A stretch of DNA of 64,000 bases from Methylacidimicrobium sp. B4 (GTDB lineage Bacteria > Verrucomicrobiota > Verrucomicrobiia > Methylacidiphilales > Methylacidiphilaceae), in assembly GCF_017310545.1 (NCBI RefSeq), contig NZ_CP066203.1, positions 1,240,001 through 1,304,000 of the forward strand. The letters are read 5' to 3'. Of the stretch, positions 31,516 through 52,143 are shown piece by piece. Numbering within the stretch: the stretch's first letter is position 1; each line of letters opens with the position of its first letter. The notes below the pieces were generated by a model. It saw only the letters and a list, made by a program, of their open reading frames with translations. It did not search any database and was not told the DNA's origin. Position numbers and translations under genes: made by a program.

Positions 31516-33039
31516 ATGTCGTTCCTTCGCTCGGCAAGGAGTGTCCTTGCGCTCCTTTTCCTGGCGGGCGCGACCACCCGAGACGTGGGCAGGGCCGAGC
31601 CGACGGGCCAGGCGGCTCCGCCGCCCGAGGCGGCCGGCGCACAACCCATGGAGTTCCGCAGTCAAGCGCGCAACCCGCAGGACGCCGATCCTCCCCAAAG
31701 GCCCATTCCCCTCGAGAAGAGCGCCGTCGGATCCGATCATCCGCTGATCCGCTTCTGGAGAAGGGTTCAGGCACACTATCCCGAGCTCAAGAAAAAGCAC
31801 GCCAAGCTCCAGGAGATGCTTGCCCAGAAGGCCCTGGCGGCTTCCGGCTTCCTGCCTCGGGTCTACGGCTGGGCAGACTCGATCACCACCGATAACCCGA
31901 TTTTCGGTTTCATGTTTCACCTGACCGAGCGAAACTTCTCGGCGGGCGACCTCAATCTCAATTCGCTCAACCATCCGGGCACAGTTTCCAACCAGAACAT
32001 GGGCCTCATGGCGCTCATCCCGATTTTTGACGCCATGCAGACGATCGATTCGATTCGCACGGCCAAGCACCTGATCCAGCAGAGCGAGCAGGAGGAGCGA
32101 TTCACGCGGATGGAGGCGAGCCTGCTCGCCATCGACGCCTATATGCAGCTCCTTTTGGCGGAACGCGAGGCAGCCCTCGCCCGGCTCGATGTGCAGGCAT
32201 CCGCGCGCGATCTTGATCAGGCCATCCACCTGATGGAGCAAGGACTTGTTCTGGGCGCAGATTTTTATGCCGGCCGCTCGATGAGCGCTTCGATCGAGCA
32301 GAGCCAGAATGGCTATGTCTCCAAACGCAAGGTGGCACGGGTGGCGGTCAATACGCTCCAGGGAGAGAGTGCAGATGCCGAGGTTGCCCTGGCTGGCTCG
32401 ATTCCCACCCTTCGCAAGGGCCCGACGAAGCCGCTCGAGCAGTGGGTACAGGAAGCCTTCCTCTACCGAAGTGATCTCTTGGCCCTCCAGTCGTCGATCG
32501 CCGCCCAGCATTCGGAGGTAGGCAGGATCAAGGCCACGGCGCTTCCTTCGGTCAACGGCTTTGCTTCCGGCATGCTCGACAGCGACAACTTCAACTCAGG
32601 TGGGAGAAGCTATACGGTCGGAGTCCTGGGAACCGTCCCGCTCTTCGATCCCGCCCGGGATCCGAAGGTCAAGCAGGCCCAGGCCGCTGAGGAGCAGCTT
32701 CGCCACGAAGCGGCTTCCTTGCGCGATCTCATCCAGAACAAGCTTGGCCAAGCCTACACCGAGTATCAGGGTGCGCTCCAGGACGCGGAGATCCTGGGCC
32801 GGGCCAGCGCCGACGCCCGGAAGTCGACCGAGATGATGGCCGAGCTCTACCGGGAAGGACGGAAGACGATCGTCGACCTGCTCGGTGTGCGCCAGCTGCA
32901 GCTCCAAACCGAAATCGGGTACTGGGACAGCCTCGCCCGGCTCGAGCTGGCTCGAGCAAAGCTCTACTTCTTGTCGGGGGAGCTCGATGACTATCAGGTT
33001 CAGCAGATCGCCCAGGAGATCGGAGGGGCGACCCCGTGA
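31516..33039 (+). CDS. TolC-family outer-membrane efflux protein
   Basis: A 507-aa trimeric outer-membrane channel subunit. A signal region comes first (FLRSARSVLALLFLAGA), then a Pro/Ala-rich linker. Two homologous OEP halves follow, made of long amphipathic helices: ELKKKHAKLQEMLAQKALAASGFLP, then EQLRHEAASLRDLIQNKLGQAYTEYQGAL and the end helix RQLQLQTEIGYWDSLARLELARAKL. It overlaps the RND gene by 4 bases (ATGA or GTGA type). It could serve both RND pumps of this window. Confidence 0.92.
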   Translation: MSFLRSARSVLALLFLAGATTRDVGRAEPTGQAAPPPEAAGAQPMEFRSQARNPQDADPPQRPIPLEKSAVGSDHPLIRFWRRVQAHYPELKKKHAKLQEMLAQKALAASGFLPRVYGWADSITTDNPIFGFMFHLTERNFSAGDLNLNSLNHPGTVSNQNMGLMALIPIFDAMQTIDSIRTAKHLIQQSEQEERFTRMEASLLAIDAYMQLLLAEREAALARLDVQASARDLDQAIHLMEQGLVLGADFYAGRSMSASIEQSQNGYVSKRKVARVAVNTLQGESADAEVALAGSIPTLRKGPTKPLEQWVQEAFLYRSDLLALQSSIAAQHSEVGRIKATALPSVNGFASGMLDSDNFNSGGRSYTVGVLGTVPLFDPARDPKVKQAQAAEEQLRHEAASLRDLIQNKLGQAYTEYQGALQDAEILGRASADARKSTEMMAELYREGRKTIVDLLGVRQLQLQTEIGYWDSLARLELARAKLYFLSGELDDYQVQQIAQEIGGATP

Positions 33040-36000
33040 GCGGCAAGCAAGACGGTGGAGCGATCGGTGGATTCATCCGCTTCTTCTCTTCTTCCCTCGT
33101 CACGCCTCTGCTCATCCTCGCTTCCTGGCTTCTGGGCTCCTTCGCCTTGATGGAGCTGCCCCGGGAGGAAGAACCGCAGATCGTCGTTCCCCTCTTCGAC
33201 GTTTTCGTCTCCATGCCGGGGGCGAGCCCCGAAGAGGTGGAAAAGCGCATCGTCAACAATGGGGAGCGCGTCTTCTGGCAGATCCCGGGAGTGGAATACG
33301 TCTATTCCACGGCGGCTCCCAACGGTGCCATGTTCATCGTCCGGTTTGAGGTGGGCGAAGAGATGGAGAAGAGCCTCATCAAGCTCTTTACCAAGGTTTA
33401 CTCCCATCTCGACTTCCTTCCTCCCGGCGCGTCGATCCCGCTGATCAAGCCCCGCTCGATCGACGATGTGCCGATCCTTGCCCTCACCTTCTATAGCCCG
33501 ACGCGGGATCCCCTGAGCCTGCGCCGCGTCGTCGCGACGGTTCGCGATAAGATCAATCCGATCTCGGACATCTCGGAAACTACGATCCTCGGCGGCCGCA
33601 AACGTCAGTTCCAGGTCTTCTTCGACCCGGCCAAGCTCGCCATGCACCTGCTCACCCCGGCGGATCTCGTCGCGTTGATCCACCAGAACAACGTCCGGCT
33701 GCCCGCCGGCCACCTCGAATCGGAGCCCAAGCTCATCGAGGTGGAGCCCAGTGCTCTCCTCATGACGAAGCGGGACCTGGAAAACCTGGTCGTCAGCGTC
33801 AGCCAGGGGAAGATCGTCTATCTCCGGGATGTCGCTCAGGTCGTTGACGGACCCGACCAGGAGGAGCGGAGCTTGACGCTGCGCTTCGGAGCGGGGTCGC
33901 ACCAGCAGATCCGGGAACCGATCGACGCGGTCACCCTGGCGGTTGCCAAGAGAAAGGGCGCCAACGCCACGTTCCTGGCCAAGAAGATCCTCGAAGACAT
34001 TGCTGCCCTAAGGCCGGACACCCTCCCTCCCGACGTCCAATACGTGGTCACCCGGGATTACGGGCAGACGGCCGCCGAGAAATCGAATGAGCTCTTGGAG
34101 CATATGGCCATCGCGATCTTCGGCGTGAGCCTTCTGATTGCGCTCTTCCTCGGATTACGGGCGGCCGCCATCACCATCATTGCCATTCCGACCACCCTGG
34201 CGATCACGCTCCTCACCTTCCACCTCTTCCATTTCACGATCAACCGGGTGACCCTCTTTGCCTTGATTTTCACGATCGGGATCCTCGTCGACGATCCGAT
34301 CGTCGGCGTTGAAAACATTGTTCGCCATCTCCATCTCCCGGGCAGTGCCGGGCGACCGCTGCTCGCCGTCGCCACCGAAGCCATGCTCGAGATCGTCGGA
34401 CCCTTGATCCTGGCGACATTTGCGGTGATCGCGGCGATCCTTCCGATGGCCACCGTCGGGGGCCTCATGGGCCCCTACATGCGGCCGATTCCCATCGGAG
34501 CGACGACCGCCATGATCGTCTCCATGCTCGTCTCCCTTTCGGCGACGCCCTGGGCCTCGGTCCTGCTCCTCAAAGGGAGCAAGCATGTGGGAGAGCGAGG
34601 CGAAGGCTTCCTGCTGCGTCTCTATCGCTGGTTTGTCACACCGCTGATCTACAATCGCTGGCTGCGCCTGCTGTTTGTCCTTGTGGTTCTTGTCCTTCTC
34701 GGGGCTGCGATGGCCTTGATCCCGCTGAAGCTCGTCCGCGCCAAGATGCTCCCATTCGACAACAAGAACGAGTTCCAGGTCATCCTCAACATGCCCGAGG
34801 GGACTCCGGCAGAGGCGACTCGCGCCGTGCTCGATCAGATGGCTGGTGTCGTTCTTCGCCTTCCCGAAGTGACCAACGTCGAGATCCAGGCGGGCACCCA
34901 TTCGCCGTACAACTTCAACGGATTGATTCGCCACTACTTCCTCCGGGAAGCCCCCCACCAGGGCGACCTGCAGGTGAACCTCAGGGACAAATCGGAGCGC
35001 AAGCGGCAGAGCCACGAGATCGCGGAGAGCGTGCGGCCGGAAATCAACCGCATCGCCCAGGCTGCGGGCGCGCACGCACAGGTCGCAGAGGTGCCGCCGG
35101 GTCCTCCCGTCCTCTCAACCCTGGTCCTGGAGATCTACGGCCCCTCGGCGACCGAACGCCAGGCGATGGCGACGAAAATCGAAGGCCTCATGCGCGCGTC
35201 TCCCGAGATGACCGATATCGCCACCTACGAAGAGACTCCACGTCCCTTGGAGGTCTACAACATCGACCTGGTCAAAGCTTCCTTGAACGGCCTCCCAGCG
35301 GAGGCGATCGCCCAGAGCCTCGTCACCGCCCTCCATGGAGCGAGCCCCGGCCTGGCCCATACGCCGGAGGAACCCGAGCGCGTCGAGATCCTGGTCCGCC
35401 TGCCCGAGCAAGAGCGCCGATCCGATCAGGCGGTGCGCGACATGACGCTCCTGAGCCGTTTCGCGCGGTTGCTCCCGATCAAGGATCTCACCTCGGCAGA
35501 GCGGACGCATCAGCACTATCCCATCTACCACAAGAACTTGATGCCGGTTACCTATCTTCTGGGCGACGTTACGGGCCAGATCGGCAGTCCGGTCTACGGC
35601 ATCCTCGATTTCACGCCCGCACTGGAGAAGCTCCGCACCCCGCAGGGCAAGCCGTTCGAGATCCTGTACACCCACCTTCCCGAGAGCCCGAACAGCTGGG
35701 CAATCAAATGGGACGGAGAATGGCAGGTGACCTACGAGGTCTTCCGGGATCTCGGCAAGGCCTTCGCCATCGTGCTTGTGCTTATCTTCATCCTGGTCGT
35801 TGGCTGGTTCCGTTCCTTCGTGACCCCCTGGGCCGTGATGCTCCCCATCCCCCTCTCCCTGATCGGCATTCTCCCCGCCCACTGGTACCTGGGCATGTTC
35901 TTCACCGCCACCTCGATGATCGGCATGATGGCCGGCGCGGGAATCGTCGTCCGCAACGCCATCATCCTGGTGGATTTCATCGAGATGCGCCTCGCAGAGG

Positions 36001-36269
36001 GCGATTCGCTCGAAGAGGCCGTGATTTCCGCGGGGGCCGTCCGGCTGCGACCGATCCTGCTCACCGCCCTGGCTGTGATCATCGGAAGTGCTGTGATCCT
36101 CTTCGATCCGATCTTCCAAGGGCTGGCATTGGCACTCATGTCGGGCGAGATCGCGGCGACGCTCCTCTCGCAGCCCGCAGTCCCCGTTTTTTATTACATG
36201 TTGCGCAAGAGACAGATCGCCAGGCAGAAGCAGGTATTGGCGAATCCCTCCGAACCCGTGCGGAGTTGA
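33036..36269 (+). CDS. RND-superfamily efflux permease (HAE-like)
   Basis: A 1077-aa inner-membrane proton-driven exporter with the usual twelve helices and two large periplasmic loops. The helix-4 proton relay shows adjacent aspartates in FTIGILVDDPIVGVENIVRHL, and the second half has GAGIVVRNAIILVDFIEMR. The first periplasmic loop carries PGASPEEVEKRIV and PGVEYVYSTAAPNGA, the porter-domain pattern of HAE/hydrophobe pumps rather than the CzcA/CusA type. It is coupled to the TolC gene, but no periplasmic adaptor gene is present in the operon, which is unusual. The substrate is unknown. Confidence 0.92.
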   Translation: MSGKQDGGAIGGFIRFFSSSLVTPLLILASWLLGSFALMELPREEEPQIVVPLFDVFVSMPGASPEEVEKRIVNNGERVFWQIPGVEYVYSTAAPNGAMFIVRFEVGEEMEKSLIKLFTKVYSHLDFLPPGASIPLIKPRSIDDVPILALTFYSPTRDPLSLRRVVATVRDKINPISDISETTILGGRKRQFQVFFDPAKLAMHLLTPADLVALIHQNNVRLPAGHLESEPKLIEVEPSALLMTKRDLENLVVSVSQGKIVYLRDVAQVVDGPDQEERSLTLRFGAGSHQQIREPIDAVTLAVAKRKGANATFLAKKILEDIAALRPDTLPPDVQYVVTRDYGQTAAEKSNELLEHMAIAIFGVSLLIALFLGLRAAAITIIAIPTTLAITLLTFHLFHFTINRVTLFALIFTIGILVDDPIVGVENIVRHLHLPGSAGRPLLAVATEAMLEIVGPLILATFAVIAAILPMATVGGLMGPYMRPIPIGATTAMIVSMLVSLSATPWASVLLLKGSKHVGERGEGFLLRLYRWFVTPLIYNRWLRLLFVLVVLVLLGAAMALIPLKLVRAKMLPFDNKNEFQVILNMPEGTPAEATRAVLDQMAGVVLRLPEVTNVEIQAGTHSPYNFNGLIRHYFLREAPHQGDLQVNLRDKSERKRQSHEIAESVRPEINRIAQAAGAHAQVAEVPPGPPVLSTLVLEIYGPSATERQAMATKIEGLMRASPEMTDIATYEETPRPLEVYNIDLVKASLNGLPAEAIAQSLVTALHGASPGLAHTPEEPERVEILVRLPEQERRSDQAVRDMTLLSRFARLLPIKDLTSAERTHQHYPIYHKNLMPVTYLLGDVTGQIGSPVYGILDFTPALEKLRTPQGKPFEILYTHLPESPNSWAIKWDGEWQVTYEVFRDLGKAFAIVLVLIFILVVGWFRSFVTPWAVMLPIPLSLIGILPAHWYLGMFFTATSMIGMMAGAGIVVRNAIILVDFIEMRLAEGDSLEEAVISAGAVRLRPILLTALAVIIGSAVILFDPIFQGLALALMSGEIAATLLSQPAVPVFYYMLRKRQIARQKQVLANPSEPVRS

Positions 36270-36320
36270 CGCCGCTCCCGCGCGATTCCTTCCCGAGCGC
36301 AGCTTGGATCATAAATACGC

Positions 36321-36349
36321 TTGCGCTACGTTTCTTGCGTTTGTATCCT
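36321..36349 (+). promoter_or_regulatory. Putative promoter upstream of the DF-type gene
   Basis: TTGCGC (36321-36326) and TATCCT (36344-36349) are separated by 17 bases, in a 187-base gap that is more AT-rich than its surroundings. It would serve the gene starting at 36457 with a leader of about 100 bases. By eye only. Confidence 0.3.
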
Positions 36350-36456
36350 TTGGACGAGTCGGCTTTCCCGCCGGGGGCAATCGGCCTCACTCGGAATTGG
36401 GACGGGGATCTTTCCCTGACGACGAACGCCGACGAAGAAGGGAGCGAAGTTGCCTC

Positions 36457-36921
36457 ATGGAAATAGAACTCTTCTACTTCGAAAGTTGTCCTCACTGGCT
36501 CGACGCCCTGCGCCGCGTGGAGGAGGTGCTAGCCGAGGAAGGTGGAATCCATGAGATTCGCTTGATCCCCATCCGGACGGTTGCGGAAGCGCAAAGACAC
36601 CGCTTTTTCGGTTCTCCCACGATCCGAATCGGCGAACGGGATATCGACCCCGCGGCCTGGGGTCGAATGGACTACGGCCTTGGCTGTCGCCTCTACGCCA
36701 ACGTGGACGGCTCGATTCATCCCGTTCCGTCCAAGGAGTTCGTCCGGCAGGCCTTCCGGTCGCACCGACCGCTTTCACTCGCCGAAGCACACGACGAGAT
36801 CCTTGAATCCATCAAGCATCAACACCCGGAATGGGTGGCTGATCCAATGGAGGAGTGCTCCCGCTGTGTGCGCTACGAATACGAATTGGCCGATCCGCTC
36901 ATCATGCCGCTCGAGGAGTAG
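36457..36921 (+). CDS. DF-family thioredoxin-like protein (Cys form of a selenoprotein family)
   Basis: A 154-aa protein. Residues 1-85 form a thioredoxin-like half: IELFYFESCPHWLDAL holds a single N-terminal Cys where selenoprotein relatives carry selenocysteine, and FFGSPTIRIGERDIDP is the cis-Pro region, followed by GLGCRLY. The remaining 70 residues are charged and end with a CSRC pair (ECSRCVRYEYELADP), perhaps a metal or partner thiol site not usual for the family. It may act in thiol or metal redox defence. It converges with exbD. Confidence 0.78.
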   Translation: MEIELFYFESCPHWLDALRRVEEVLAEEGGIHEIRLIPIRTVAEAQRHRFFGSPTIRIGERDIDPAAWGRMDYGLGCRLYANVDGSIHPVPSKEFVRQAFRSHRPLSLAEAHDEILESIKHQHPEWVADPMEECSRCVRYEYELADPLIMPLEE

Positions 36922-39257: not shown

Positions 39258-39462
39258 GCCAAACCTCCTATCCCCATCTTCGGACGGTAGCAGATGCCGG
39301 CCTAGGGGCGCAAGCGAGGCTTTTGTGCCGGCCGCCTTCGATCCAGCGCACGTGCCTACTCCCTCCGCGGGAAAGGTCACCGATGACGACCCCTCTTTCG
39401 AATTTTGCGCGGGAAAACGAATCTGGCGGTGTTTACTTTGTCTGGAGCGATAGGAAAAAGGC

Positions 39463-39765
39463 ATGAGCAGCGATCCGTTGGATGAGCTTCTGCAGAGCTG
39501 GCGGCCGGAGGGTCGGCTCCCCGACGAATTTCAATCCGAGGTCTGGAAGCGGGTGGCCTTACGCTCCCGGATCGCCCTTACGCCGATTCGTCTGAGCCGA
39601 GGGACGTGGGCGACGGTTCTAGCCGCTTCCCTTTTCGCATTCCTCCTTGCCACAGGCCAGGTGCTCCGATGGGAGCAGGAGCGCTCCGCTGCGCTCAGAG
39701 CCCAATACTTCCAATCGATTGACCCGCAGGCCCTCGCCGCCGCGCAGGAAGGGCGATCGCCGTGA
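39463..39765 (+). CDS. CnrY-like single-pass anti-sigma candidate
   Basis: A 100-aa protein with a cytoplasmic N-terminus (LDELLQSWRPEGRLPDEFQSEVWKRV), one membrane helix (TWATVLAASLFAFLLATGQVL) and a short periplasmic tail. Length, topology and position match CnrY/NccY, the small anti-sigma factors that hold an ECF sigma at the membrane. The next two genes are a periplasmic metal-sensor-like protein and an ECF sigma, in the same order as cnrYXH. It overlaps the sensor gene by 4 bases. The anti-sigma role is inferred from context rather than a recognised domain. Confidence 0.72.
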   Translation: MSSDPLDELLQSWRPEGRLPDEFQSEVWKRVALRSRIALTPIRLSRGTWATVLAASLFAFLLATGQVLRWEQERSAALRAQYFQSIDPQALAAAQEGRSP

Positions 39766-40250
39766 GAAGGCTCCTTTCGCTCGCCCCACTGACCGTTTTC
39801 GTTGCTGTCGCCGTCTATCTGGCCACGCTCTTTTTGGAGACCCTCCCTTCCCGGCGCTCCACCCGCGAGCCCGATGCGGGACTGCAATGGCTCCGCCACG
39901 AGCTCGATCTTACGGACCGGCAGATGGACGCAATCTCCCGCTTGCAAGAAGCCTATCGCCCCAGCTGCCAAACGATGTGCCGCCAGATCCTGGCGAGCGA
40001 CTCGAAGCTCCGGGAGCTCTTCGAACAAAACCGCTCGATCACGCCCGAAATGCTCACGGCCATGGCCGAGCGAGACCAGCTCCGCTCCAAATGCCGGCGC
40101 GCATTCCTGCGGCACGTCCACGAGGTAAGCGGCGAGCTCTCCGCCCCGCAGCGGCAACGCTATCTCTCCCTCGTCTCCGATGAGATTCTGGGTCCATCGC
40201 AGAACGCGAGTGTGGGGCAGAGGGGGCAGAGGAGAGATGGCGGCCCATGA
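39762..40250 (+). CDS. CnrX/CpxP-like periplasmic metal-sensor protein
   Basis: A 162-aa protein with an N-terminal membrane anchor (LLSLAPLTVFVAVAVYLATLFL) and a helical periplasmic domain of the heavy-metal-resistance (CnrX/ZraP/Spy) type. LRHELDLTDRQMDAISRLQEAY and LSAPQRQRYLSLVSDEI match the two LTxxQ-like hairpins. Candidate metal ligands are SCQTMC (about residues 68-73), SKC (about 106) and the RHVHEVS histidines (about 113-117), a thiol-rich set unlike the His/Met set of CnrX. It overlaps both neighbours by 4 bases. Confidence 0.83.
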   Translation: MRRLLSLAPLTVFVAVAVYLATLFLETLPSRRSTREPDAGLQWLRHELDLTDRQMDAISRLQEAYRPSCQTMCRQILASDSKLRELFEQNRSITPEMLTAMAERDQLRSKCRRAFLRHVHEVSGELSAPQRQRYLSLVSDEILGPSQNASVGQRGQRRDGGP

Positions 40251-40828
40251 GCGAGCCTGATCCCGACTGGCAACTCATGGCCCGGCTCGCCAAGGAGGAC
40301 GATCGCGCGCTCAACGCTCTCATGGATCGCTGGCAGGAGAGGCTCTTTCACTTTCTATGCCGGGTCACCGGCGACCAAGCGTCGGCCGCCGACCTCGCTC
40401 AGGAAACCTTCGTCCGCGTCTACGAAGCCCGCCACAAGGTCCGGCAAGAGGGCCGCTTTTCCGCCTGGCTCTTCACGATCGCCGCCAATCTCAGCCGCAA
40501 CCTGGCCCGGTGGCGCAGGAGACATCCCACGGTTTCCCTGACCGAAACCGCCGAGCAGGACGGATCGCCCACCCTGGAAGATCGTCTTGGCGAGCAAAGG
40601 TCCCCGGGAGCCCGACTCGAAACGGAGGAGCTCTGCACCCAAGTCCGGTCCGCGATTCTCTCTCTGCCGTCGCCACTCAAGGAAACCCTGATCCTTTTCG
40701 AGTACGAGGAGCTCTCCTACGAGGAGATTGCCCAGGCGCTGGGCTGCTCCCGCAAGATCGTCGAGATGCGGCTCTATCGGGCACGCAAACGCTTGCGGAG
40801 GGCGCTTGCCAGAGAACATCTGCTCTGA
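40247..40828 (+). CDS. ECF-type RNA polymerase sigma factor
   Basis: A 193-aa sigma factor with only regions 2 and 4. Region 2 (about residues 20-85) shows CRVTGDQASAADLAQETFVRVYEAR and FSAWLFTIAANLSRN. Region 4 (about 125-185) shows ILSLPSPLKETLILFEYEELSYEEIAQALGCSRKIVEMRLYRARKRL, a clean helix-turn-helix. It is the third gene of the cnrYXH-ordered cassette, so its activity is probably released when the periplasmic sensor detects its signal. The DsrE-TusA-SQR genes start 127 bases downstream and may be targets. Confidence 0.93.
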   Translation: MSEPDPDWQLMARLAKEDDRALNALMDRWQERLFHFLCRVTGDQASAADLAQETFVRVYEARHKVRQEGRFSAWLFTIAANLSRNLARWRRRHPTVSLTETAEQDGSPTLEDRLGEQRSPGARLETEELCTQVRSAILSLPSPLKETLILFEYEELSYEEIAQALGCSRKIVEMRLYRARKRLRRALAREHLL

Positions 40829-40954
40829 GCCCCTCCTCGTCGTGGTCCTCCGGAAAACCCGATGGGACTTTTGGCTTGACCGGCGGCAGCTCGATTGCGA
40901 GCATTGTCATGTCAAGCAGAGGGACTCAATCCGAATTCCAACCTGGAGATTTCC

Positions 40955-41368
40955 ATGAGCGAGAAACTGTCGATCGTCCTTTTTTCCGGCACAGTGGATA
41001 AGTTAATGGCGGCTTCCGTCATGGCTTCCGGTGCTGCGGCCATGCAAAAGGAGGTAACCATCTTCGCAACCTTCTACGGTCTCTTCGCGCTCCGCAAGGG
41101 GGATTGGAAGCAGAACCGGCGCGTCAGCAAGGATTTCGAGGATTACGGAGAGCAATTTCTGCGCGTCTTGGAGGAGAAGAAAGCGCCTAGCTGGCTCGAG
41201 ACGCTGCAGGGCGCCATGGAGATCGGCAACGTGAAAGTGAAGGCGTGCGGGCTCACGATGGACCTCCTGTCGATCAAGCTGGAGGATTTGGAGCCGATCG
41301 TGAGCGAGATTGTGGGGGTCGCGCATTTCGTCGAGGAGGCTGCGGACGGGCAAATTCTTTTCCTGTGA
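40955..41368 (+). CDS. DsrE/DsrF/DrsH-like sulfur-trafficking family protein
   Basis: A 137-aa cytosolic protein. [26 protein letters not shown] and [16 protein letters not shown] match the peroxiredoxin-like DsrE family (DUF1641-associated, DsrE2-like). One conserved cysteine lies in [13 protein letters not shown] (near residue 95), the position used to carry persulfide sulfur. ATG 40955 has GGAG eight bases upstream. It sits directly before tusA and the sulfide:quinone oxidoreductase gene, which fits a sulfane-sulfur relay. Confidence 0.88.
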
Positions 41369-41414
41369 GCCACGCTTCCTTCATCGAAAGACTGCGGAAA
41401 CAACGGAGGACATC

Positions 41415-41657
41415 ATGGAAGGGGTGAAGATTGCGAAGGAGAGCGACGCGCGGGGAAGCTTCTGCCCGGGGCCGCTCATGGAGATGATCCGGCTGGTTCG
41501 CTCGGCGAACGTGGGGGAGGTCGTCGCGGTGATTTCCGGCGACGAGGGCAGCAAGAAGGACATTCCCGCATGGATCCAGAAGGCCCGTTACGAGCTCGTC
41601 GGAACGGAGGAGGTTGCCCCCGGAGCAACCCGTTTCCTCTGCCGCAAGAATCACTAG
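41415..41657 (+). CDS. TusA-family sulfurtransferase
   Basis: An 80-aa protein of the TusA/SirA fold. The signature is [17 protein letters not shown], the CPxP box with the sulfur-carrying Cys at residue 17. A second Cys lies at FLCRKN at the C-terminus. GGAGG lies six bases before ATG 41415. With DsrE upstream and SQR downstream it most likely passes persulfide sulfur from sulfide oxidation to acceptors, rather than acting only in tRNA thiolation. Confidence 0.93.
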
Positions 41658-41719
41658 GTGAAACGCGCACTACGGCGCTCGGGTAGATTCTTCCAGAGAG
41701 AGAGAAGGAATTGAGCATC

Positions 41720-42862
41720 ATGAAAACCATCCTCATCCTCGGTGGCGGAACCGGAGGAACGATCGTGGCCAACCGGCTCGCCCATGGATTGCGGCCCGAA
41801 GATGCCTCCATCGAGGTGGTCAGCGATTCCCCGCTCCACTACTACCAGCCTGCACAGCTCTACATCCCCTTTGGCGAGGAGGATCCGAGAAAGATCGCGC
41901 GCTCGGAGCGCAAGTTGCTGAATCCAAACGTCAAATTTCGGATCGACACGATTTCCGAATGGCTTCCCGAGAAGCAGCTGCTCCGTACCGCCAAAGGGGA
42001 AGCTCTCTCCTACGACTTCCTGGTCATTGCGACCGGCTCCATCGCCTGTCCCGAGACCGTGGAGGGATTCGTCGCTGGCTCAGATCACTTCTACACGCCG
42101 GAAGGAGCCTATCGTCTCTACCATAAGCTCAGCGAGTTTGAAGGCGGACGCATCGTCGTGGGAGTGGGTGGCATCCCTTACAAGTGCCCGGTAGCACCTC
42201 TCGAGTTTACTCTTCTTGCGGAAGCCTTTCTCACCCGCAAGGGGATCCGGTCCAACACCGAGATGGTCTACACCTTCCCGTTGAACGATGTCTTCCAGAT
42301 CCAGAGCGTGGTCCCCGTGGTGCGATCTCTTTTCGAGCAGCGCTCCATCCGCGCGGAAACGTTTTTCAATCTCGAATCGGTCGATCCCGAAAAGAAGGTC
42401 GTCAAGAGCCTGGAAGGAACCGAGCTTCCTTTTGACATCCTCGTGATGACTCCGCCCCATAAGGGTGCCGCCTTCCTTCGAGGCCATCCGATGGCGGATG
42501 ACGACGGATGGGTCAATACCGACCGCAGCACCCTCCGCGTGAATGGGCTCCCCAACGTCTGGGCGCTGGGCGACACGACCAACCTGCCGATCAGCAAAGC
42601 GGGGAGCACCGCGCATTTCGAGGCACCGGTGATCGTCGAGCAGATCGTGGGTATGATTCGCCACGAGGAGCCCGCTCCCGGGAAGGCGACCTATCATGGG
42701 CATGTCACCTGCTTCATCGATTCGGGCTACGGGAAGGCAACCATCCTCGATTTCGATTACGATCACCCACCGGCGGTGTACGATCCCGACGAATTTCGCC
42801 ATCTCCAGAAGATGGCGTTCAACAAGCTCTACTGGTATCTGGTTCCGACGGCGGTCATCTGA
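41720..42862 (+). CDS. Sulfide:quinone oxidoreductase-like FAD protein
   Basis: A 380-aa membrane-associated flavoprotein of the SQR/FCSD family. The FAD-binding start is TILILGGGTGGTIVANRL. DFLVIATGS precedes Cys110; Cys156 lies in IPYKCPVAPLEF and Cys331 in HVTCFIDSG. This gives the three-cysteine layout used by SQR for the sulfide/persulfide site. WALGDTTNLP is the second FAD motif, and the C-terminal LYWYLVPTA is an amphipathic membrane-docking segment. It would oxidise sulfide to polysulfide and reduce quinone. ATG 41720 is used; an in-frame TTG lies at 41711. Confidence 0.88.
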   Translation: MKTILILGGGTGGTIVANRLAHGLRPEDASIEVVSDSPLHYYQPAQLYIPFGEEDPRKIARSERKLLNPNVKFRIDTISEWLPEKQLLRTAKGEALSYDFLVIATGSIACPETVEGFVAGSDHFYTPEGAYRLYHKLSEFEGGRIVVGVGGIPYKCPVAPLEFTLLAEAFLTRKGIRSNTEMVYTFPLNDVFQIQSVVPVVRSLFEQRSIRAETFFNLESVDPEKKVVKSLEGTELPFDILVMTPPHKGAAFLRGHPMADDDGWVNTDRSTLRVNGLPNVWALGDTTNLPISKAGSTAHFEAPVIVEQIVGMIRHEEPAPGKATYHGHVTCFIDSGYGKATILDFDYDHPPAVYDPDEFRHLQKMAFNKLYWYLVPTAVI

Positions 42863-43869: not shown

Positions 43870-46800
43870 TTAAGATCGCGTCGGTCTCGCCGCCGAACCA
43901 AGGTCGAGTCCAGCCTCGGAAGAGCCGTCCCCGTTCGGCAGGCTTCGGCCGCGCCAGAGCAGGTAGAGGATCGGATAGAGGAGCAATTCGAGCACCCCCG
44001 AGGTCACGATCCCGCCCACCATCGGTGTCGCGATTCGCTTCATCACGTCCGCCCCGGTTTCCTGGCTCCAAAGGATGGGAAGAAGCCCGAAGAGAATCGC
44101 ACAGATGGTCATCATCTTCGGCCGGATCCTGCCGAGAGCGCCCGCCTCGATCGCCGCGCGCAGGTCAGCACGGGACCGCATCCTCCCTTCGCGACTCCGC
44201 TCTTCATAGGCATGATCCAAGTAGAGAAGCATGACGACCCCTGTCTCGGCGTCGAGGCCGGCCAGGGCGATCAACCCGACAGCCACGGCGACGCTCAGGT
44301 TGTAGCCAAGCCAGTAGAGCAGCCAGAAAGCTCCTACCAGGGAAAATGGGACCGCGAGCAGCACGAGCAGGGTTCGGCTGGCCGATCGCGTGTTCAAGTG
44401 GAGCAAGATCAAGATGATCATCAGGGTGAGGGGAATCAGGAGGAAGAGACGATGCTTCGCACGGAGGAAGTACTCATAAGAACCGGCCCATTCGACGTAA
44501 TACCCGGGAGGGAAGGCTACGTTCCGGGCGATCTGCGCACCGGCTCGGCGAACGTAGCCAACAAGATCTTTGGCCGTGCTATCGACAAAGACAAAGCCGA
44601 CGAGCTGGGCATTTTCGCTCCGAACCTCGGGCGGACCAAAGGCAAAATGGATATCCGCCAGCTCACCCAGAGGAACCTGAACGCCGGAGAGCGGTGCCCC
44701 CGGCAAGCTTCGGGACAAGGAGTCGGCTGAAACGGTTGGAGGTGTCTCGCCCAGGAGGATGCGAGAGAGTGCGAGCGGATCCTGCCGAAAGTCTCGATTG
44801 TAGCGGACGCTCACGGGGTATCGCTCCCGCCCCTCTACCGTGACAGTTACGGTATTGCCGCCAATCGCTCCTTCAATCGCCTGGTTCACGTCCTCGACCG
44901 TGAACCCGTAGCGCGCGAGCGCTTCGCGGCGCACCTGGATATCCAGGTACCTCCCCCCTTCCACCCGCTCCGCAAAGACGCTTCGAGTTTCGGGGAAGCC
45001 GGAAAGAGCACGCTCGATCTTCTCCCCCAAATCGCGGATCACAGCGAGGTCGGAACCGAAGATCTTGATTCCCAGATTGGACCGAAAGCCCGTCTGCAGC
45101 ATCTCGGTGCGAGTCTGGATCGGCATCCAAAAGATGTTAGCGACCCCGGGAAACTGGAGCTGTCGATTGAGCTCCGCAAGGAGCTTGTTCCAGCTCATCC
45201 CTTTCCTCCACTCGGCTTCCGGCCGGAAGGTCACCACCGTCTCGGTCATCGAGAGCGGGGCCGGATCGGTCGCCGTATCTGCCTGCCCTACCTTCCCAAA
45301 GACGGTGGCGACCTCGGGCATCTGGGCGATGATCCGGTCTTGCGTCTGAAGGATGCGCGCCGCCTCCGCAATGGCCACGCCAGGTACCGCAGTCGGCATG
45401 TAGAGCAGGGTCCCCTCGTTGAGCGGAGGCATGAACTCCGCTCCCAAGCGACGAAGCGGGTAGAGAGTCGAGCCGAGCACTACAAGCGCGAGGAGAAGCA
45501 CGAGAACGCCGTGGCGGAGAACCAGGCGGAGGATGGGGCCGTAGAGGGCGAGGAGAAGCCGGTTGAGAGGGTTTCGTCTTTCCGGAACGATGCGCCCCCG
45601 GACAAACCAGAGCATCAGCACGGGCACCAGGGTCACCGAGAGCACGGCGGCGAAAAACATCGCGAAGGTCTTGGTAAAGGCGAGCGGACGAAAGAGACGG
45701 CCCTCTTGAGCCTCGAGAGCGAAGACCGGCACAAAGGAGACCGTGATCACCAGAAGCGAAAAGAAGAGAGGTCGTCCCACCTGCTTGGCGGCGGTGAGCA
45801 CGACCCGCAACCGTTCTGCCCCACGCGGATCCTTCCCCGTCTTCTCCCTGGCTTCTTCCAACCGCTTGTGGGCGTTTTCCACCATGATGACCGCACCGTC
45901 GACCATGGCCCCGATCGCGATGGCAATGCCTCCCAGCGACATGATGTTCGCGGTCAGCCGCAGGCCGCCAAAGGGGATGAAGGAGAGCACGATCGCCGCC
46001 GGGAGGAGGAGGATCGCCACAAGAGCGCTCCGAATATGCCAGAGGAAGAGAATGCAGACCAGGCTGACGACGAGGCACTCCTCGATCAGCTTCTTCCAGA
46101 GCGTGTGAATCGATCGAAGGATGAGCTCGGAGCGATCGTAGGTGGGCAACACTCGGACGCCGGGAGGGAAAGAGCTTTCGAGGGTGTTCAGCTTTTGCTT
46201 GACGCCGTCGATCACCCGCAGCGCATTTTCGCCATGGCGCATGACGACGATGCCGCCGACGGTTTCTCCTTTCCCGCCCAGCTCGGCGAGCCCTTGCCGC
46301 AGATCCCCCCCAAGCGTGAGACTCCCCAGCTGCCGGACAAGAATGGGAAAGCCCCGCGGGTCGGTGCGCACGACTGCGTTCCCCACATCCGCAAGGGACT
46401 GAAAGTAGCCCCGCCCGCGAATGTAATACTCCATGGTGGAGATCTCGAAGCTCTTTCCGCCGACGTCCCGGTTGCCCTTGCGAACCGCATCGACGACCTC
46501 CGAGAAGCGGACCCCGTAGGCCACGAGCTTACCCGGGTCGAGGTTCACCTGGTATTGGCGGACATAGCCGCCAACGCTCGCCACCTCGGAGACGCCGTGA
46601 ACGGAAGCCAGGGCGTAGCGGAGGGTCCAATCCTGAAAAGAGCGGAGCTCGGCCAAGTCGTGCCTTCCCGACTCATCGACGAGCGCGTATTCGAAGACCC
46701 AGCCGACACCGGTCGCATCCGGTCCCAGGGTGGGGCTGACTCCTTCCGGCAGTCGGCTCCGGGCACCGTTCAGATACTCGAGCACGCGCGACCGAGCCCA

Positions 46801-47112
46801 GTAGAGATCGGTTCCATCTTCGAAGATCACGTAGACAAACGACTTCCCGAAGATCGACTCGCCACGGACAAACTTCACCTTCGGCGCCGAAAGAAAAAGT
46901 GTCGAGATCGGATAGGTAATCTGATCCTCGACGAGCGTCGGGCTCCGTCCGGGCCATTCGGTGTAGACGATCACCTGGACGTCGGAGAGATCCGGAATGG
47001 CATCCAGAGGAGAATTCCGCAGCGCCAAGATTCCCCAGGTAAGGCCAAAGGCGGCCAGTATGCTGACCAGGAATGGATTGCGCCCGCTCCAGTCGATGAG
47101 GCGATCCAACAT
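43870..47112 (-). CDS. cusA: Cu(I)/Ag(I) RND efflux permease, CusA-type
   Basis: A 1080-aa heavy-metal RND pump (HME class). DAIPDLSDVQVIVYTEWPGR and the twelve-helix pattern are typical. The metal-path methionines are recognisable in NIFWMPIQTRTEMLQTGFRS, the CusA-like substrate segment. The helix-4 motif reads IAIGAMVDGAVIMVENAHKRL. The end block RPKMMTICAILFGLLPILWSQETGADVMKRIATPM is characteristic of CusA/CzcA. It begins two bases after the stop of the adaptor gene, so cusB-cusA form one operon. No outer-membrane channel gene is in this operon. Confidence 0.93.
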   Translation of the reverse strand: MLDRLIDWSGRNPFLVSILAAFGLTWGILALRNSPLDAIPDLSDVQVIVYTEWPGRSPTLVEDQITYPISTLFLSAPKVKFVRGESIFGKSFVYVIFEDGTDLYWARSRVLEYLNGARSRLPEGVSPTLGPDATGVGWVFEYALVDESGRHDLAELRSFQDWTLRYALASVHGVSEVASVGGYVRQYQVNLDPGKLVAYGVRFSEVVDAVRKGNRDVGGKSFEISTMEYYIRGRGYFQSLADVGNAVVRTDPRGFPILVRQLGSLTLGGDLRQGLAELGGKGETVGGIVVMRHGENALRVIDGVKQKLNTLESSFPPGVRVLPTYDRSELILRSIHTLWKKLIEECLVVSLVCILFLWHIRSALVAILLLPAAIVLSFIPFGGLRLTANIMSLGGIAIAIGAMVDGAVIMVENAHKRLEEAREKTGKDPRGAERLRVVLTAAKQVGRPLFFSLLVITVSFVPVFALEAQEGRLFRPLAFTKTFAMFFAAVLSVTLVPVLMLWFVRGRIVPERRNPLNRLLLALYGPILRLVLRHGVLVLLLALVVLGSTLYPLRRLGAEFMPPLNEGTLLYMPTAVPGVAIAEAARILQTQDRIIAQMPEVATVFGKVGQADTATDPAPLSMTETVVTFRPEAEWRKGMSWNKLLAELNRQLQFPGVANIFWMPIQTRTEMLQTGFRSNLGIKIFGSDLAVIRDLGEKIERALSGFPETRSVFAERVEGGRYLDIQVRREALARYGFTVEDVNQAIEGAIGGNTVTVTVEGRERYPVSVRYNRDFRQDPLALSRILLGETPPTVSADSLSRSLPGAPLSGVQVPLGELADIHFAFGPPEVRSENAQLVGFVFVDSTAKDLVGYVRRAGAQIARNVAFPPGYYVEWAGSYEYFLRAKHRLFLLIPLTLMIILILLHLNTRSASRTLLVLLAVPFSLVGAFWLLYWLGYNLSVAVAVGLIALAGLDAETGVVMLLYLDHAYEERSREGRMRSRADLRAAIEAGALGRIRPKMMTICAILFGLLPILWSQETGADVMKRIATPMVGGIVTSGVLELLLYPILYLLWRGRSLPNGDGSSEAGLDLGSAARPTRS

Positions 47113-47114
47113 GG

Positions 47115-48551
47115 TTACATCCCGGGCATTCCCGGCATCCCATGGGAATGGTGATGATCCGCCGGCGGCGCGGACGGAACCGCCTTCCCGGGCACCGACC
47201 CTCCTTCGGTGGGCTGTTCCCCGGACCAGATCTGCAAGGCCCCCTGGACACGGGACTCGGCTTCAATGAGGAAGTTGGCACCTGTCACGACACGCTCCCC
47301 CTCTTGGAGCCCGGCCAGCACCGGGTAGTCGTCGTCGAGCTTCTCGCCCAGGCGGACGAATCGGGGTTCGAGATGCCCTCCCCCGTGATCGACGAAGACG
47401 ACAAAGCGCCGTCCTGTCGGAATCACCGCATCGCTCCGCACGGCGAGCTGCACTCCGTAGTCGAGCCGAGCCGCCACATCGGCATACATCCCCGGGCGCA
47501 GCTTGTGACCAGGGTTGGAGAGAATGATCCGCGCCTGCAGCCGGCGCACCGTCTCGGTGAAATGAGGTTGGACGAAATCGATTCGGCTCCGAAATCGTTC
47601 TCCGGGCAGGGCGGGCAGGGTCACCTCGCACGGCTGGCCTTCGGAAATAAAAGGCGCCTGATCTTCCGGAAATTGCGCAAGGACCCAGACACGAGAAAGA
47701 CTGATGAGCCGGAAGAGCGTTTGTCCCGCCGAGAAGCGCATCCCCTCGACGACATTCTTTTCGTGCACATGGCCGGAAACCGGAGAGAGAAGATCGAAGG
47801 TCCCGTGAATCCCTTTTCCGGTGCGAACATCATTGGTCGACATGCTCCACGCATGACTTTCGAGCTCCCGGATCTGTGCGTCGGTCAGATCCCAGACGCG
47901 GATTCGGTTCCGGATATGCTCGAACTGCTGGTCGAGAAGGATCGGGTTGGCCTTTTGGACGAGCAGGCTTCTCCGCCAGGCGCGGTAGGCGCGGATATAG
48001 TCCATTTGGGCTTGGACCCAGTTCTCGGAGAGGATCGTCGCCAGCCTTTCTCCTTTGCGGACTTCTTTCCAGAGATAGTCGGCGTAGAGCTTGATGACAT
48101 ATCCATCACCCGCCTTCACGTTGATATCGACCTCCTTCGACTCGTCGACGGCGATGAGGGCGGGGGCACGCAATTCACGCACCAGGTGCCGCCGCTCGAC
48201 TACGCCCGTCCGGATGCCGATCGCTTGCAGCCGCTCGGGAGGGACAAAAAAAGGGCTGGTCGACGGGAGCGAAGGAGAGGAAGAGAGCTGCTCAGTCCGA
48301 AAGGGTGCTCCGGCGGTGGCGGTCTCCGCGGCTTTCCCTGAAAGTGATCCGCTTGCTCGAACCGGAACCAGGTCCATGCTGCAGATCGGACACTTGCCAG
48401 GAGAGGGAGAACGCACGCTCGGGTGCATGGTGCAGGTGTAATAGAGAATCCGTTGCTTAGCCTCCGGATCTGCGGAGGCCGAACCGGCTTCGAGCCAGCC
48501 CCACAGGCCGAAAGCAAGAAGAAGGGCTGCCAAAGGTCGCAAGTGATTCAT
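47115..48551 (-). CDS. cusB: CusB-type periplasmic adaptor with heavy-metal-binding domain
   Basis: A 478-aa membrane-fusion protein. After a signal peptide (LRPLAALLLAFGLWGWLEAGSASA) comes a heavy-metal-binding domain, YYTCTMHPSVRSPSPGKCPIC with MDLVPV after it (residues about 35-60). This is the Cys/His/Met module often fused to CusB or copper ATPases. The adaptor core follows: FVPPERLQAIGIRTGVVERR, a coiled-coil region around residue 180, SPVSGHVHEKNVVEGMRF (lipoyl-like), and a beta-barrel with LSRVWVLAQFPE. The C-terminus is His/Met-rich (DHHHSHGMPGMPGM), a likely copper-capturing tail. Confidence 0.93.
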   Translation of the reverse strand: MNHLRPLAALLLAFGLWGWLEAGSASADPEAKQRILYYTCTMHPSVRSPSPGKCPICSMDLVPVRASGSLSGKAAETATAGAPFRTEQLSSSPSLPSTSPFFVPPERLQAIGIRTGVVERRHLVRELRAPALIAVDESKEVDINVKAGDGYVIKLYADYLWKEVRKGERLATILSENWVQAQMDYIRAYRAWRRSLLVQKANPILLDQQFEHIRNRIRVWDLTDAQIRELESHAWSMSTNDVRTGKGIHGTFDLLSPVSGHVHEKNVVEGMRFSAGQTLFRLISLSRVWVLAQFPEDQAPFISEGQPCEVTLPALPGERFRSRIDFVQPHFTETVRRLQARIILSNPGHKLRPGMYADVAARLDYGVQLAVRSDAVIPTGRRFVVFVDHGGGHLEPRFVRLGEKLDDDYPVLAGLQEGERVVTGANFLIEAESRVQGALQIWSGEQPTEGGSVPGKAVPSAPPADHHHSHGMPGMPGM

Positions 48552-48639
48552 GGATGCAAAGAACCGGCTCTGGCAAAGAAAAACACCCCTTCCTGCGGAA
48601 ACCCTCGCAGCGGCAGCGCGGAGTCCGGCGTTGCGCCTC

Positions 48640-49146
48640 TCATCGACCCGCGTTGCCGGGCTCCCGCAATGCCACGGGAGGGTTCCAGAGGATCTCGGCC
48701 CCGAGGAAGGCTTCCCGCGCTCCCATCGGCTCGCGAAGCCGACGGAGGACTGCGACGGATGACCTCGCTGCCCTGGAGCGAGGGGGAGTCGAAGAAGCTT
48801 CCGCTACTGGCGAGGGAGGAATGGCTCCATGGTCGGAGTCGAGTGCTTCACCCCTAGGTGCAAGCTCTCCAGGAATCGAGGGAGCCGCGGCAGTCGGGAT
48901 TTCCTGAGCGGCCCCTCGGGGAGCGTCTGCCCCGGCTCGCTCCGCTTGCGGCGTGGAGGTGCGCACGGGAGAGGGCCGTCGCTCTCCGCCCCGCGGAAGG
49001 GGCTCGACCTTCCCGCGGCGGTAGGCGAGAGCCGTCTGGATCGCCAGCAGGAGGAGAATCGCAAGGAGAGTGCCCCACTCCGTCGAAAACGGGATCCCCG
49101 CTCCCAGGATGGGTGCGACGGCAGAAGGCGCGAGCGAGTCGAGCAT
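48640..49146 (-). CDS. Pro/Ala-rich single-pass membrane protein downstream of floA
   Basis: A 168-aa protein of unknown function. A short exposed start (MLDSLAPSAVAPILGAGIPFS) leads into one membrane helix (TLLAILLLLAIQTALAY). A long Pro/Ala/Arg/Ser-rich, probably disordered tail follows. GGGGGGAACG just before ATG 49146 is a strong ribosome site, and the gene starts 28 bases after floA. The tail composition could also reflect non-coding sequence read by chance, so the 3' half is less certain than the start. Confidence 0.55.
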   Translation of the reverse strand: MLDSLAPSAVAPILGAGIPFSTEWGTLLAILLLLAIQTALAYRRGKVEPLPRGGERRPSPVRTSTPQAERAGADAPRGAAQEIPTAAAPSIPGELAPRGEALDSDHGAIPPSPVAEASSTPPRSRAARSSVAVLRRLREPMGAREAFLGAEILWNPPVALREPGNAGR

Positions 49147-49174
49147 CGTTCCCCCCAAATGGTTCGCCTTTGGC

Positions 49175-50176
49175 CTACGAAGAGGGCAAGCTCTCTTGAC
49201 TCGTCCCCGGAGGCTCGCCCGCAATGCTCGAGCGCATCGCGGTATCGGCCTGGACGTTGCGCAGCCGGTAGTAGTCCATGACCCCGAGATGTCCTTTCCG
49301 GAAAGCGTCCGCCATCGCCAGAGGGATTTCGGCTTCCGCCTCGACGAGCTTGGCGCGCATCTCCTGCTCCAGGGCGACGGCCGCCGCACGCCGCACCTCG
49401 GCTTTCGCTTGAGCAACCCGCTTGTCCGCTTCCGCCTGCTCGGCCTGAAGCTTCGCCCCGATGTTGTCCCCGATGGTGACCTCTGCGATATCGATCGAGA
49501 GGATCTCGAAAGCTGTCCCGGAATCGAGTCCCTTCTGAAGAACCGTCTTCGAAATCCGATCGGGGTACTCCAGGACCTCCTTGTAATTGAGCGCCGAGCC
49601 GATCGTCGTGACGATTCCTTCTCCGACCCGCGCGATGATCGTCTCCTCGGTCGCTCCCCCGACAAAACGTTCGAGATTGGTGCGAACGGTGACTCGGGCC
49701 CGCGCTTTCACCGCGATCCCATCCTTGGCCACGCCCGCAATCGTGTTTTGCCCGGACGCCGGATTCGGACAGTCGATTACCCTGGGATTGACGCTGGTCC
49801 GGACGGCTTCGAAGACGCTCTTCCCGGTGCCGATCGTAGCCAGATCGATGGCGCACGCCCGGTTGAAATCGAGGGAGATCCCCGCTCGGTCCGCCGCGAT
49901 CAGAGCACGGACGACCTGCTCCACGTTGCCGCGCGCCAGGTAGTGGGATTCGAGCTGAGCGGTGCTCAGATCGAGGCCGGATCGGACCGCAGTGACGCGA
50001 TTGTTGACAATGAGGGAAGGAGGGATACCCCGCAACCGCATGGCCACCAGGTTGAAGAGGCTCACCCAGGCCCCGGAGATAAAGGCGCGGACCCAGATGC
50101 CAACAAAATTGATCACGAGAACGGCAAAGACGAGGGCAACCAGGGAGAGAAAACCGAGCAAGAATAGAGAGATCAT
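49175..50176 (-). CDS. floA: Flotillin-like protein FloA
   Basis: A 333-aa membrane-scaffold protein. The N-terminal hairpin membrane segment is [22 protein letters not shown]. The SPFH/PHB domain follows ([52 protein letters not shown]). The C-terminal coiled coil is Ala/Glu-rich ([54 protein letters not shown]). FloA organises functional membrane microdomains, usually with an NfeD protein, which is exactly the neighbour here. The start overlaps the nfeD stop by 4 bases. Confidence 0.95.
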
Positions 50177-50634
50177 GCTGTGGCCTCCACGATCCAGTGG
50201 CCGTCACGCCATCCCACCACGCGGATCCTGGTCCCTTCCTCCAGAAATCCGCTCTCCGCAACAACCTCTGTCCGCTTCTCCTCGAATAGGGCGACCCCGA
50301 TGGGATGGCAAGGCGAAACAAGAAGCCCCTCGTGACCCACCAGATCCGAATGAGGGCGCCCGACGCCGGACGGATTGCGGAACTCGAGCGCCATCCGATG
50401 GCCGAGGCGACTCTTGGGCAGGAACCGGAGCCAGGCCCACAGGAACGCGCTGGAGAAGAGAAGGCTCGCCGCGAGCACCGCCAGGCCCGCTCCCCATCCC
50501 GAACGGGCAAAGGCGACGACAACTCCTGTCAGGAAGGCGACGAGCGCCAGCAATCCCAGAATCGTGCTGGGAAAGAAGAGCTCGGCGCCGAATAAGACCA
50601 AGCCCGCCAAAAGGCAAAAGAGAATCGCGATCAT
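50173..50634 (-). CDS. Short NfeD-family membrane protein
   Basis: A 153-aa protein. Two to three membrane helices ([39 protein letters not shown] and [19 protein letters not shown]) are followed by a C-terminal OB-fold ([37 protein letters not shown]). This is the NfeD C-terminal module without a protease. It overlaps both the upstream protease-type NfeD gene and floA by 4 bases. Confidence 0.9.
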
Positions 50635-52025: not shown

Positions 52026-52143
52026 AAGCTCTCCTTCACCTTCCGCCAATGATCTCCTGCCGTCAATCCCGGCCCCAAAGAGCATTGACACGCCCGCGCC
52101 TCTTGGGCCAGGCTTCTGGCGAAAGTCAGGATCCGATCGGGCG

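Follow-up and report, generated by a model that had tools for sequence, protein, structure and literature searches.

Loss of nickel ligands and gain of cysteines in a CnrX-type sensor of Methylacidimicrobium, with a matching promoter at a copper/silver pump, suggest a phylum-wide shift of one signalling architecture from nickel towards copper-like metals

The locus described here lies in a 64,000-nucleotide stretch (hereafter "the window", meaning the whole analysed DNA) covering bases 1,240,001–1,304,000 of the single-contig, 2.37-Mb genome of Methylacidimicrobium sp. B4 and comprises a compact three-gene cassette, a set of sulfur genes located behind it on the same strand and an efflux operon in convergent orientation. 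Its features are as follows.

39408–39437, plus strand: putative ECF promoter for Y-X-sigma, CGCGGGAAA-N12-GTGTTTACT, ending 25 bp before the Y start codon
39463–39765, plus strand: Y, a 100-aa single-pass membrane protein, presumed anti-sigma factor
39762–40250, plus strand: X, a 162-aa, presumably membrane-anchored periplasmic sensor with predicted CnrX/NccX fold, GTG start
40247–40828, plus strand: ECF sigma factor, 193 aa, without C-terminal cysteine-rich extension
40866–40915 (approximate), plus strand: sigma-70-like element, TTGAC(C/G)...TTG(T/A)(C/A)ATG, not an ECF site
40955–42862, plus strand: sulfur genes, namely DsrE-like (40955–41368), TusA (41415–41657) and type III SQR-like (41711–42862)
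43870–47112, minus strand: cusA-like HME-RND pump, predicted target, with three CusA methionines and the GAMVDGAVIMVEN motif
47115–48551, minus strand: cusB-like periplasmic adaptor, predicted target, with an N-terminal YYTCTMHP heavy-metal-binding motif
48578–48607, minus strand: predicted ECF promoter of cusBA, CGAGGGTTT-N12-GTGTTTTTC, 27 bp before the cusB start

The cassette genes overlap by 4 bp each, GTGA at 39762–39765 joining Y to X and ATGA at 40247–40250 joining X to the sigma gene, and the reading frames, their overlaps and their order were recovered just as the first-pass annotation had described them. Its comparison with cnrYXH also holds at the level of gene order, the presumed anti-sigma factor, the sensor and the sigma factor being arranged in one operon here as in the cnr locus used for comparison (L181). 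Y possesses a single hydrophobic segment (residues ~49–68) and two conserved motifs, cytosolic LP..FQ.EVW.R(I/V)A.R and periplasmic Y..(S/E)IDP; no Pfam family match was found for it, and alignment with CnrY, a protein of similar length and the same single-pass topology, gave no detectable similarity (hhalign probability 0.5%). The third protein matches Pfam Sigma70_r2 and Sigma70_r4_2 (sigma70 regions 2 and 4), has cysteines only at positions 38, 130 and 167 of its 193 residues and is related to CnrH (hhalign 99.2%), RpoE-type chains scoring higher in the PDB search (6in7, 3e-41) than CnrH itself (4cxf, 9.5e-20). In six other genomes of the genus, and within the reach of their contigs, the Y-X-sigma order is kept together with the neighbors on both sides, DUF883/ExbBD genes preceding the cassette and DsrE-TusA-SQR-TauE-CusA-CusB following it, and therefore the arrangement is not due to chance.

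X starts with a hydrophobic membrane segment (residues ~5–25) and matches two Pfam families with scores exceeding the gathering threshold, Metal_resist (3e-7) and LTXXQ (9e-7). When a profile of 15 X homologues was compared with the PDB, NccX (3.3e-7) and CnrX (4.2e-6) ranked first, the match spanning the membrane segment as well as the sensor domain, and pairwise comparison with CnrX of pMOL28 gave 96.4% in hhalign. The structural model of X was obtained by single-sequence AlphaFold2 with a mean pLDDT of 70, values of ~80–92 over most of residues 40–140 and poor termini. Its 15 best Foldseek matches were all CnrX/NccX (probability 1.00, TMt mostly 0.69–0.79), and after realignment CnrX came on top with the best values in the list, Z 9.4 and 2.3 Å over 102 residues, such a Z alone being modest for helical bundles, so that the claim of CnrX relationship is carried by the sequence evidence. 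The kinship with CnrX put forward initially is borne out, structure prediction included, by agreement of the profile, hhalign and Foldseek results; judged by sequence profile and predicted fold, X is a genuine relative of CnrX/NccX.

The residues of X which might bind a ligand are nevertheless different from those of CnrX. H42/H46/E63/H119/M123 of CnrX align to L41/R45/Q62/H118/V122 of X, and since only H119 is kept (as H118), X has to be regarded as a variant and not as a Co/Ni CnrX. X has cysteines C69, C73 and C111 (within SCQTMC and SKC) and histidines H46, H118 and H120. The three cysteines are invariant in the 15 nearest homologues, down to 24% identity, where they belong to eight invariant columns, and occur in 38 of 77 family rows; rows L103, L110 and L118 have split alignments, yet all three cysteines are present in them. 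The early suggestion that cysteines and histidines stand instead of the CnrX set was justified as regards the loss of that set and the cysteines. If residues 62 and 118 of X are opposed in its hairpin, as they would be in CnrX, then 69 and 111 are opposed as well (both pairs sum to 180), and the three cysteines could meet a turn or two away from the CnrX site, a position deduced from the geometry of numbering and not from a measured distance. For CnrX itself, methionine and not cysteine is considered the appropriate residue in the periplasm, and the M123C substitution abolishes nickel signaling (PMC7689651); the periplasmic cysteines of X could be oxidized, which counts against a thiolate site.

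In the tree of the 77 family members, the exact H-H-E-H-M set is found in about 10 Verrucomicrobiota sensors, which form a clade with CnrX separated with 99% support, the other half of the tree being dominated by the three-cysteine type; further ligand sets are L-C-S, L-A-C and M-S-A. Verrucomicrobiota contain at least two sensor clades, one with CnrX ligands, grouping with CnrX, and one with three cysteines, to which X of the window belongs. The AU test did not accept a tree with all three-cysteine sensors in one strict clade (p 0.0003), an outcome which a loss of cysteines in derived members would explain.

The promoter motif was learned by expectation-maximization from 35 Y-upstream regions, all outside the genus, and has the form yGAGGGtTT-N12-gnGTwT, with 0.91 of the weight on the fixed gap and a typical position 40–66 bp ahead of the aligned Y start. 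Scanning of both strands of the window with the resulting PWM gave the best score, 21.9 bits, to 48578–48607 (runner-up 13.8), whereas the maxima of 60 Markov-simulated windows averaged 14.0 (sd 2.3) and none of them attained 21.9; the site precedes cusB in six of the seven genus genomes and is degraded in the seventh (G005). The site before Y is conserved in all seven with the 12-bp spacing of the motif and scores only 2.3 bits owing to AA in the position of TT, a variant also present in cnrCp (CGAGGGGAA) and upstream of cusB in L030 (CGAGGGAAA); by its sequence, the cassette is probably autoregulated from 39408–39437. Start sites mapped for cnrYp and cnrCp (PMC9045368) fall 4 nt after AAGGGGGAG-N12-CCGTATAAG and CGAGGGGAA-N13-CCGTATAGA, respectively, and since this places them 4 nt past a matching −10 element, the promoter type appears to be common with CnrH. 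A predicted CnrH-type promoter hence stands before Y, as a weak variant, and before an HME-RND operon, in strong form at cusB. Of the three positions for which a shared promoter had been envisaged, 48551 (cusB) gave a clear match, 39463 (Y) a weak one and 40955 (DsrE) none.

In a pattern search of the genome, the first pattern returned exactly two matches in 2.37 Mb, the cusB and Y sites, a result which is not independent, since the pattern was built after both sites had been seen; two other exact motif matches were not taken as targets, one lying opposite a coding frame and the other (10.7 bits) inside an ORF. When loci are compared, cusB lacks a separate ECF site if cusBA is contained within the Y-X-sigma operon (L023, L024, L025, L028) and mostly has one if cusBA is separate (the genus, L134, L139, L140). 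In L103 and L126 the motif stands in front of an outer-membrane efflux gene which adjoins cusBA-like genes. Small secreted proteins are encoded right behind the motif at L023:10671-11604, L024:10144-11146 and L110:6658-7014, some of them with YHS-like cysteine motifs (YPL.TC.VS...FCC..C), and are likely periplasmic metal-binding members of the regulon. The motif makes regulons predictable across the phylum.

The pump so marked is of Cu/Ag type. CusA scores 1122 bits with TIGR00914 (NCBIfam CusA/CzcA) and 1093 bits against E. coli CusA, with LLYMP, APL(E/S)M and (I/T)(D/E)ML, i.e., the three substrate-path methionines, kept; both these Cu/Ag-type methionines and the CusA-type motif are present. 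CusB matches NCBIfam CusB at 7.7e-40, below the curated cutoff. As described at first, cusA ends 3.0 kb from the cassette, in convergent orientation. The ECF promoter match 27 bp upstream of cusB agrees with the earlier view of the Cus pump as a natural target. Several observations concern these genes and their surroundings. In G005 (L018:537-1888) the cusB sequence is divided between two frames and the −10 element of the ECF site is degraded, reflecting either a sequencing error or a decaying pump, and in G011, a Methylacidiphilum-type genome devoid of the sensor module, a CusA homologue (contig 1, 88390-91182) has seven in-frame stops and therefore looks like a pseudogene. Three ORFs at 48640-52349 on the minus strand of the window, NfeD- or band-7-like by eye, lie upstream of cusB on its strand and end shortly before it. 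A second RND adaptor/pump pair, not of CusA type and present in most of the genus, is found at 31516-36921, followed by a thiol-protein-like ORF.

Of 288 genomes sampled across the phylum, 47 contain an X match, with the Y-X-sigma order almost always kept. In four other genera the module either is directly followed by cusBA or diverges from it; it runs directly into cusBA in families of the same order (L023, L024, L025, L028) and is divergent from it in another genus of the same family (L030). A high-scoring CusA is encoded at most 7 kb from the three-cysteine loci of about 11 genera; over half of all such loci, however, lack an RND pump in the surrounding ~7 kb, and L139 and L140 combine a different sensor class with adjacent cusA, so the link from cysteines to Cus is not exclusive. 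Sensors of the latter class, M-S-A, lacking both the cysteines and the CnrX ligands, occur at L139:4977-8314, L140:6980-13620 and L134:5153-7887 in Y-X-sigma modules next to cusB/cusBA with the ECF promoter motif, and are possibly a second solution for copper sensing. One sensor of the CnrX-ligand type (L132) shares a contig with cusBA of a three-cysteine cassette, and Methylacidiphilum-type genomes keep CusA in the absence of the module. The search for plasmid-borne relatives gave none by DNA and one fragment at E 0.7 by protein.

Taken together, the data make it probable that the cassette works as a transmembrane switch of CnrYXH type which has been adapted to a thiophilic metal, with Cu(I)/Ag(I) as the likeliest one, and which drives cusBA and itself. 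By analogy with the CnrYXH working model (PMC7689651), the conserved cytosolic N-terminus of Y would tether the ECF sigma factor to the inner membrane, with X anchored beside Y and its sensor domain folded as the CnrX helical hairpin. C69 and C73 on one helix and C111 on the antiparallel one may form a three-thiolate site, with H118, at the position of H119 in CnrX, located nearby. Metal binding would alter X, Y would let the sigma factor go, and the latter would transcribe cusBA from 48578–48607 and probably its own operon from 39408–39437. Homology and predicted fold of X, the loss of CnrX ligands, the invariant cysteines, the promoter motif and its position at cusB were computed directly; sequestration by Y, thiolate coordination and release of sigma are deduced from them, and so is the identity of the metal, for which Cu(I)/Ag(I) is preferred because of the thiolates and the pump.

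The location of DsrE, starting 126 bp past the sigma stop on the same strand in the genus, raises another option, that the cysteines respond to sulfide, to persulfide or to the redox state of the envelope, three cysteines being capable of redox or persulfide chemistry, and that the sigma factor drives DsrE-TusA-SQR. A generic scan for sigma-70 promoters and terminators called nothing, the sigma-70-like element before DsrE included, and, as no terminator was called between sigma and DsrE, read-through from the cassette into the sulfur genes is possible. (The SQR-like product at 41711-42862 reaches 360 bits, below the cutoff of 525, with the NCBIfam model "type III sulfide quinone reductase, selenoprotein subtype".) Against this option, no ECF site was found before DsrE (PWM 0.2 bits), the genus alignment revealing there a conserved TTGAC(C/G)...TTGTAATG-like element; the best promoter match of the window belongs to cusB; and adjacency of cassette and sulfur genes was seen only in this genus, five relatives, with Methylacidiphilum-type genomes among them, having SQR but not the module and G008 having the module next to cusBA but no SQR. 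For these reasons of promoter sequence and decoupled linkage the sulfur genes are most likely mere neighbors, their nomination as targets was not upheld, and sensing of sulfide or redox state is judged quite unlikely. Of the thiophilic signals proposed at first, only the copper/silver part thus stands, being favored by the thiolates and by the Cu/Ag-type pump at the promoter match; of the two checks offered at first as possible refutations, on the structure of X and on shared promoters, neither speaks against the cus genes as targets.

Other ligands of the same switch, or another role of X, deserve consideration as well. A different soft metal (Hg, Au, As, Cd) acting through the same switch on the same pump would fit a three-cysteine site too, and many three-cysteine loci of the phylum lack a nearby RND pump, but no methionine of the three in the Cu/Ag path is missing from CusA, and it is cusBA that recurs as neighbor or promoter target, which leaves this version unlikely. 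That X might be a nickel/cobalt sensor like true CnrX, as fold, gene order and promoter type would allow, is hardly credible given that four of five CnrX ligands are missing, among them M123 needed for signaling (PMC7689651), that sensors with CnrX ligands sit in another clade together with CnrX and that the adjoining pump is of Cu/Ag type. The LTXXQ match above cutoff, the presence of Spy and ZraP lower in the fold list and the sigma factor being nearer to the RpoE type than to CnrH in the PDB search could be read in favor of a periplasmic chaperone of Spy/CpxP/ZraP type reporting envelope stress via an ordinary RpoE-like sigma; with CnrX/NccX first in every search, X presumably membrane-anchored and encoded in a Y-X-sigma operon and a CnrH-type promoter found at metal-efflux genes, such a role is very improbable. 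The re-tuned CnrYXH-type switch for Cu(I)/Ag(I) remains the preferred reading.

A broader proposition, for and against which we see about equal chances, is that CnrX-type sensing forms a modular platform in Verrucomicrobiota, in which one architecture and promoter type is combined with several sets of ligands (H-H-E-H-M, three cysteines and a minimum of two or three others) selecting different metals and pumps, the three-cysteine clade being the first periplasmic thiolate sensor of Cu(I)/Ag(I) acting via an anti-sigma factor and controlling CusBA without CusRS. No description of a cysteine site in any sensor of CnrX type, nor of anti-sigma-controlled CusBA, was found in a literature search which covered few subscription journals, and absence from the literature is for this reason weak evidence. 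CnrYXH has so far been a textbook case of Cupriavidus, cobalt and nickel; if the proposition is true, its mechanism operates widely in a second phylum, where the metal sites can be exchanged, and natural sensor variants become available for asking how ligand sets define metal selectivity in an oxidizing periplasm. Methane monooxygenase of acidophilic methanotrophs is copper-dependent, and these bacteria would gain a means of controlling copper export.

Among known systems, the closest is cnrYXH/nccYXH of Cupriavidus metallidurans, with which the cassette has in common gene order, overlaps (L181), the CnrX-type fold of a presumably membrane-anchored sensor, a related ECF sigma factor and GAGGG-type −35 and GTAT-type −10 elements upstream of Y and of an HME-RND operon. 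It differs in the replacement of H42, H46, E63 and M123 and the three invariant cysteines of X, in Y not being detectably related to CnrY and in the pump, CusBA-like (Cu/Ag) and encoded in a separate convergent operon instead of CnrCBA. With ZraP, CpxP and Spy, soluble chaperones with lower fold scores, X shares the helical-hairpin periplasmic fold family (LTXXQ), differing from them by its N-terminal membrane segment, a presumed anchor, and its place in a Y-X-sigma operon. The copper-dependent CorE of Myxococcus xanthus is likewise an ECF sigma factor, the role of copper being predicted here, but it carries its own cytoplasmic C-terminal cysteine-rich sensor (PMC8999054), an extension which the sigma factor of the window lacks, its cysteines residing in the separate periplasmic protein X. 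Finally, control of a CusBA pump by periplasmic sensing, predicted for this locus, is exerted over cusCFBA in E. coli by the two-component kinase/regulator CusRS (PMC10141476), in the place of which an ECF sigma factor with a CnrX-type sensor is found here.
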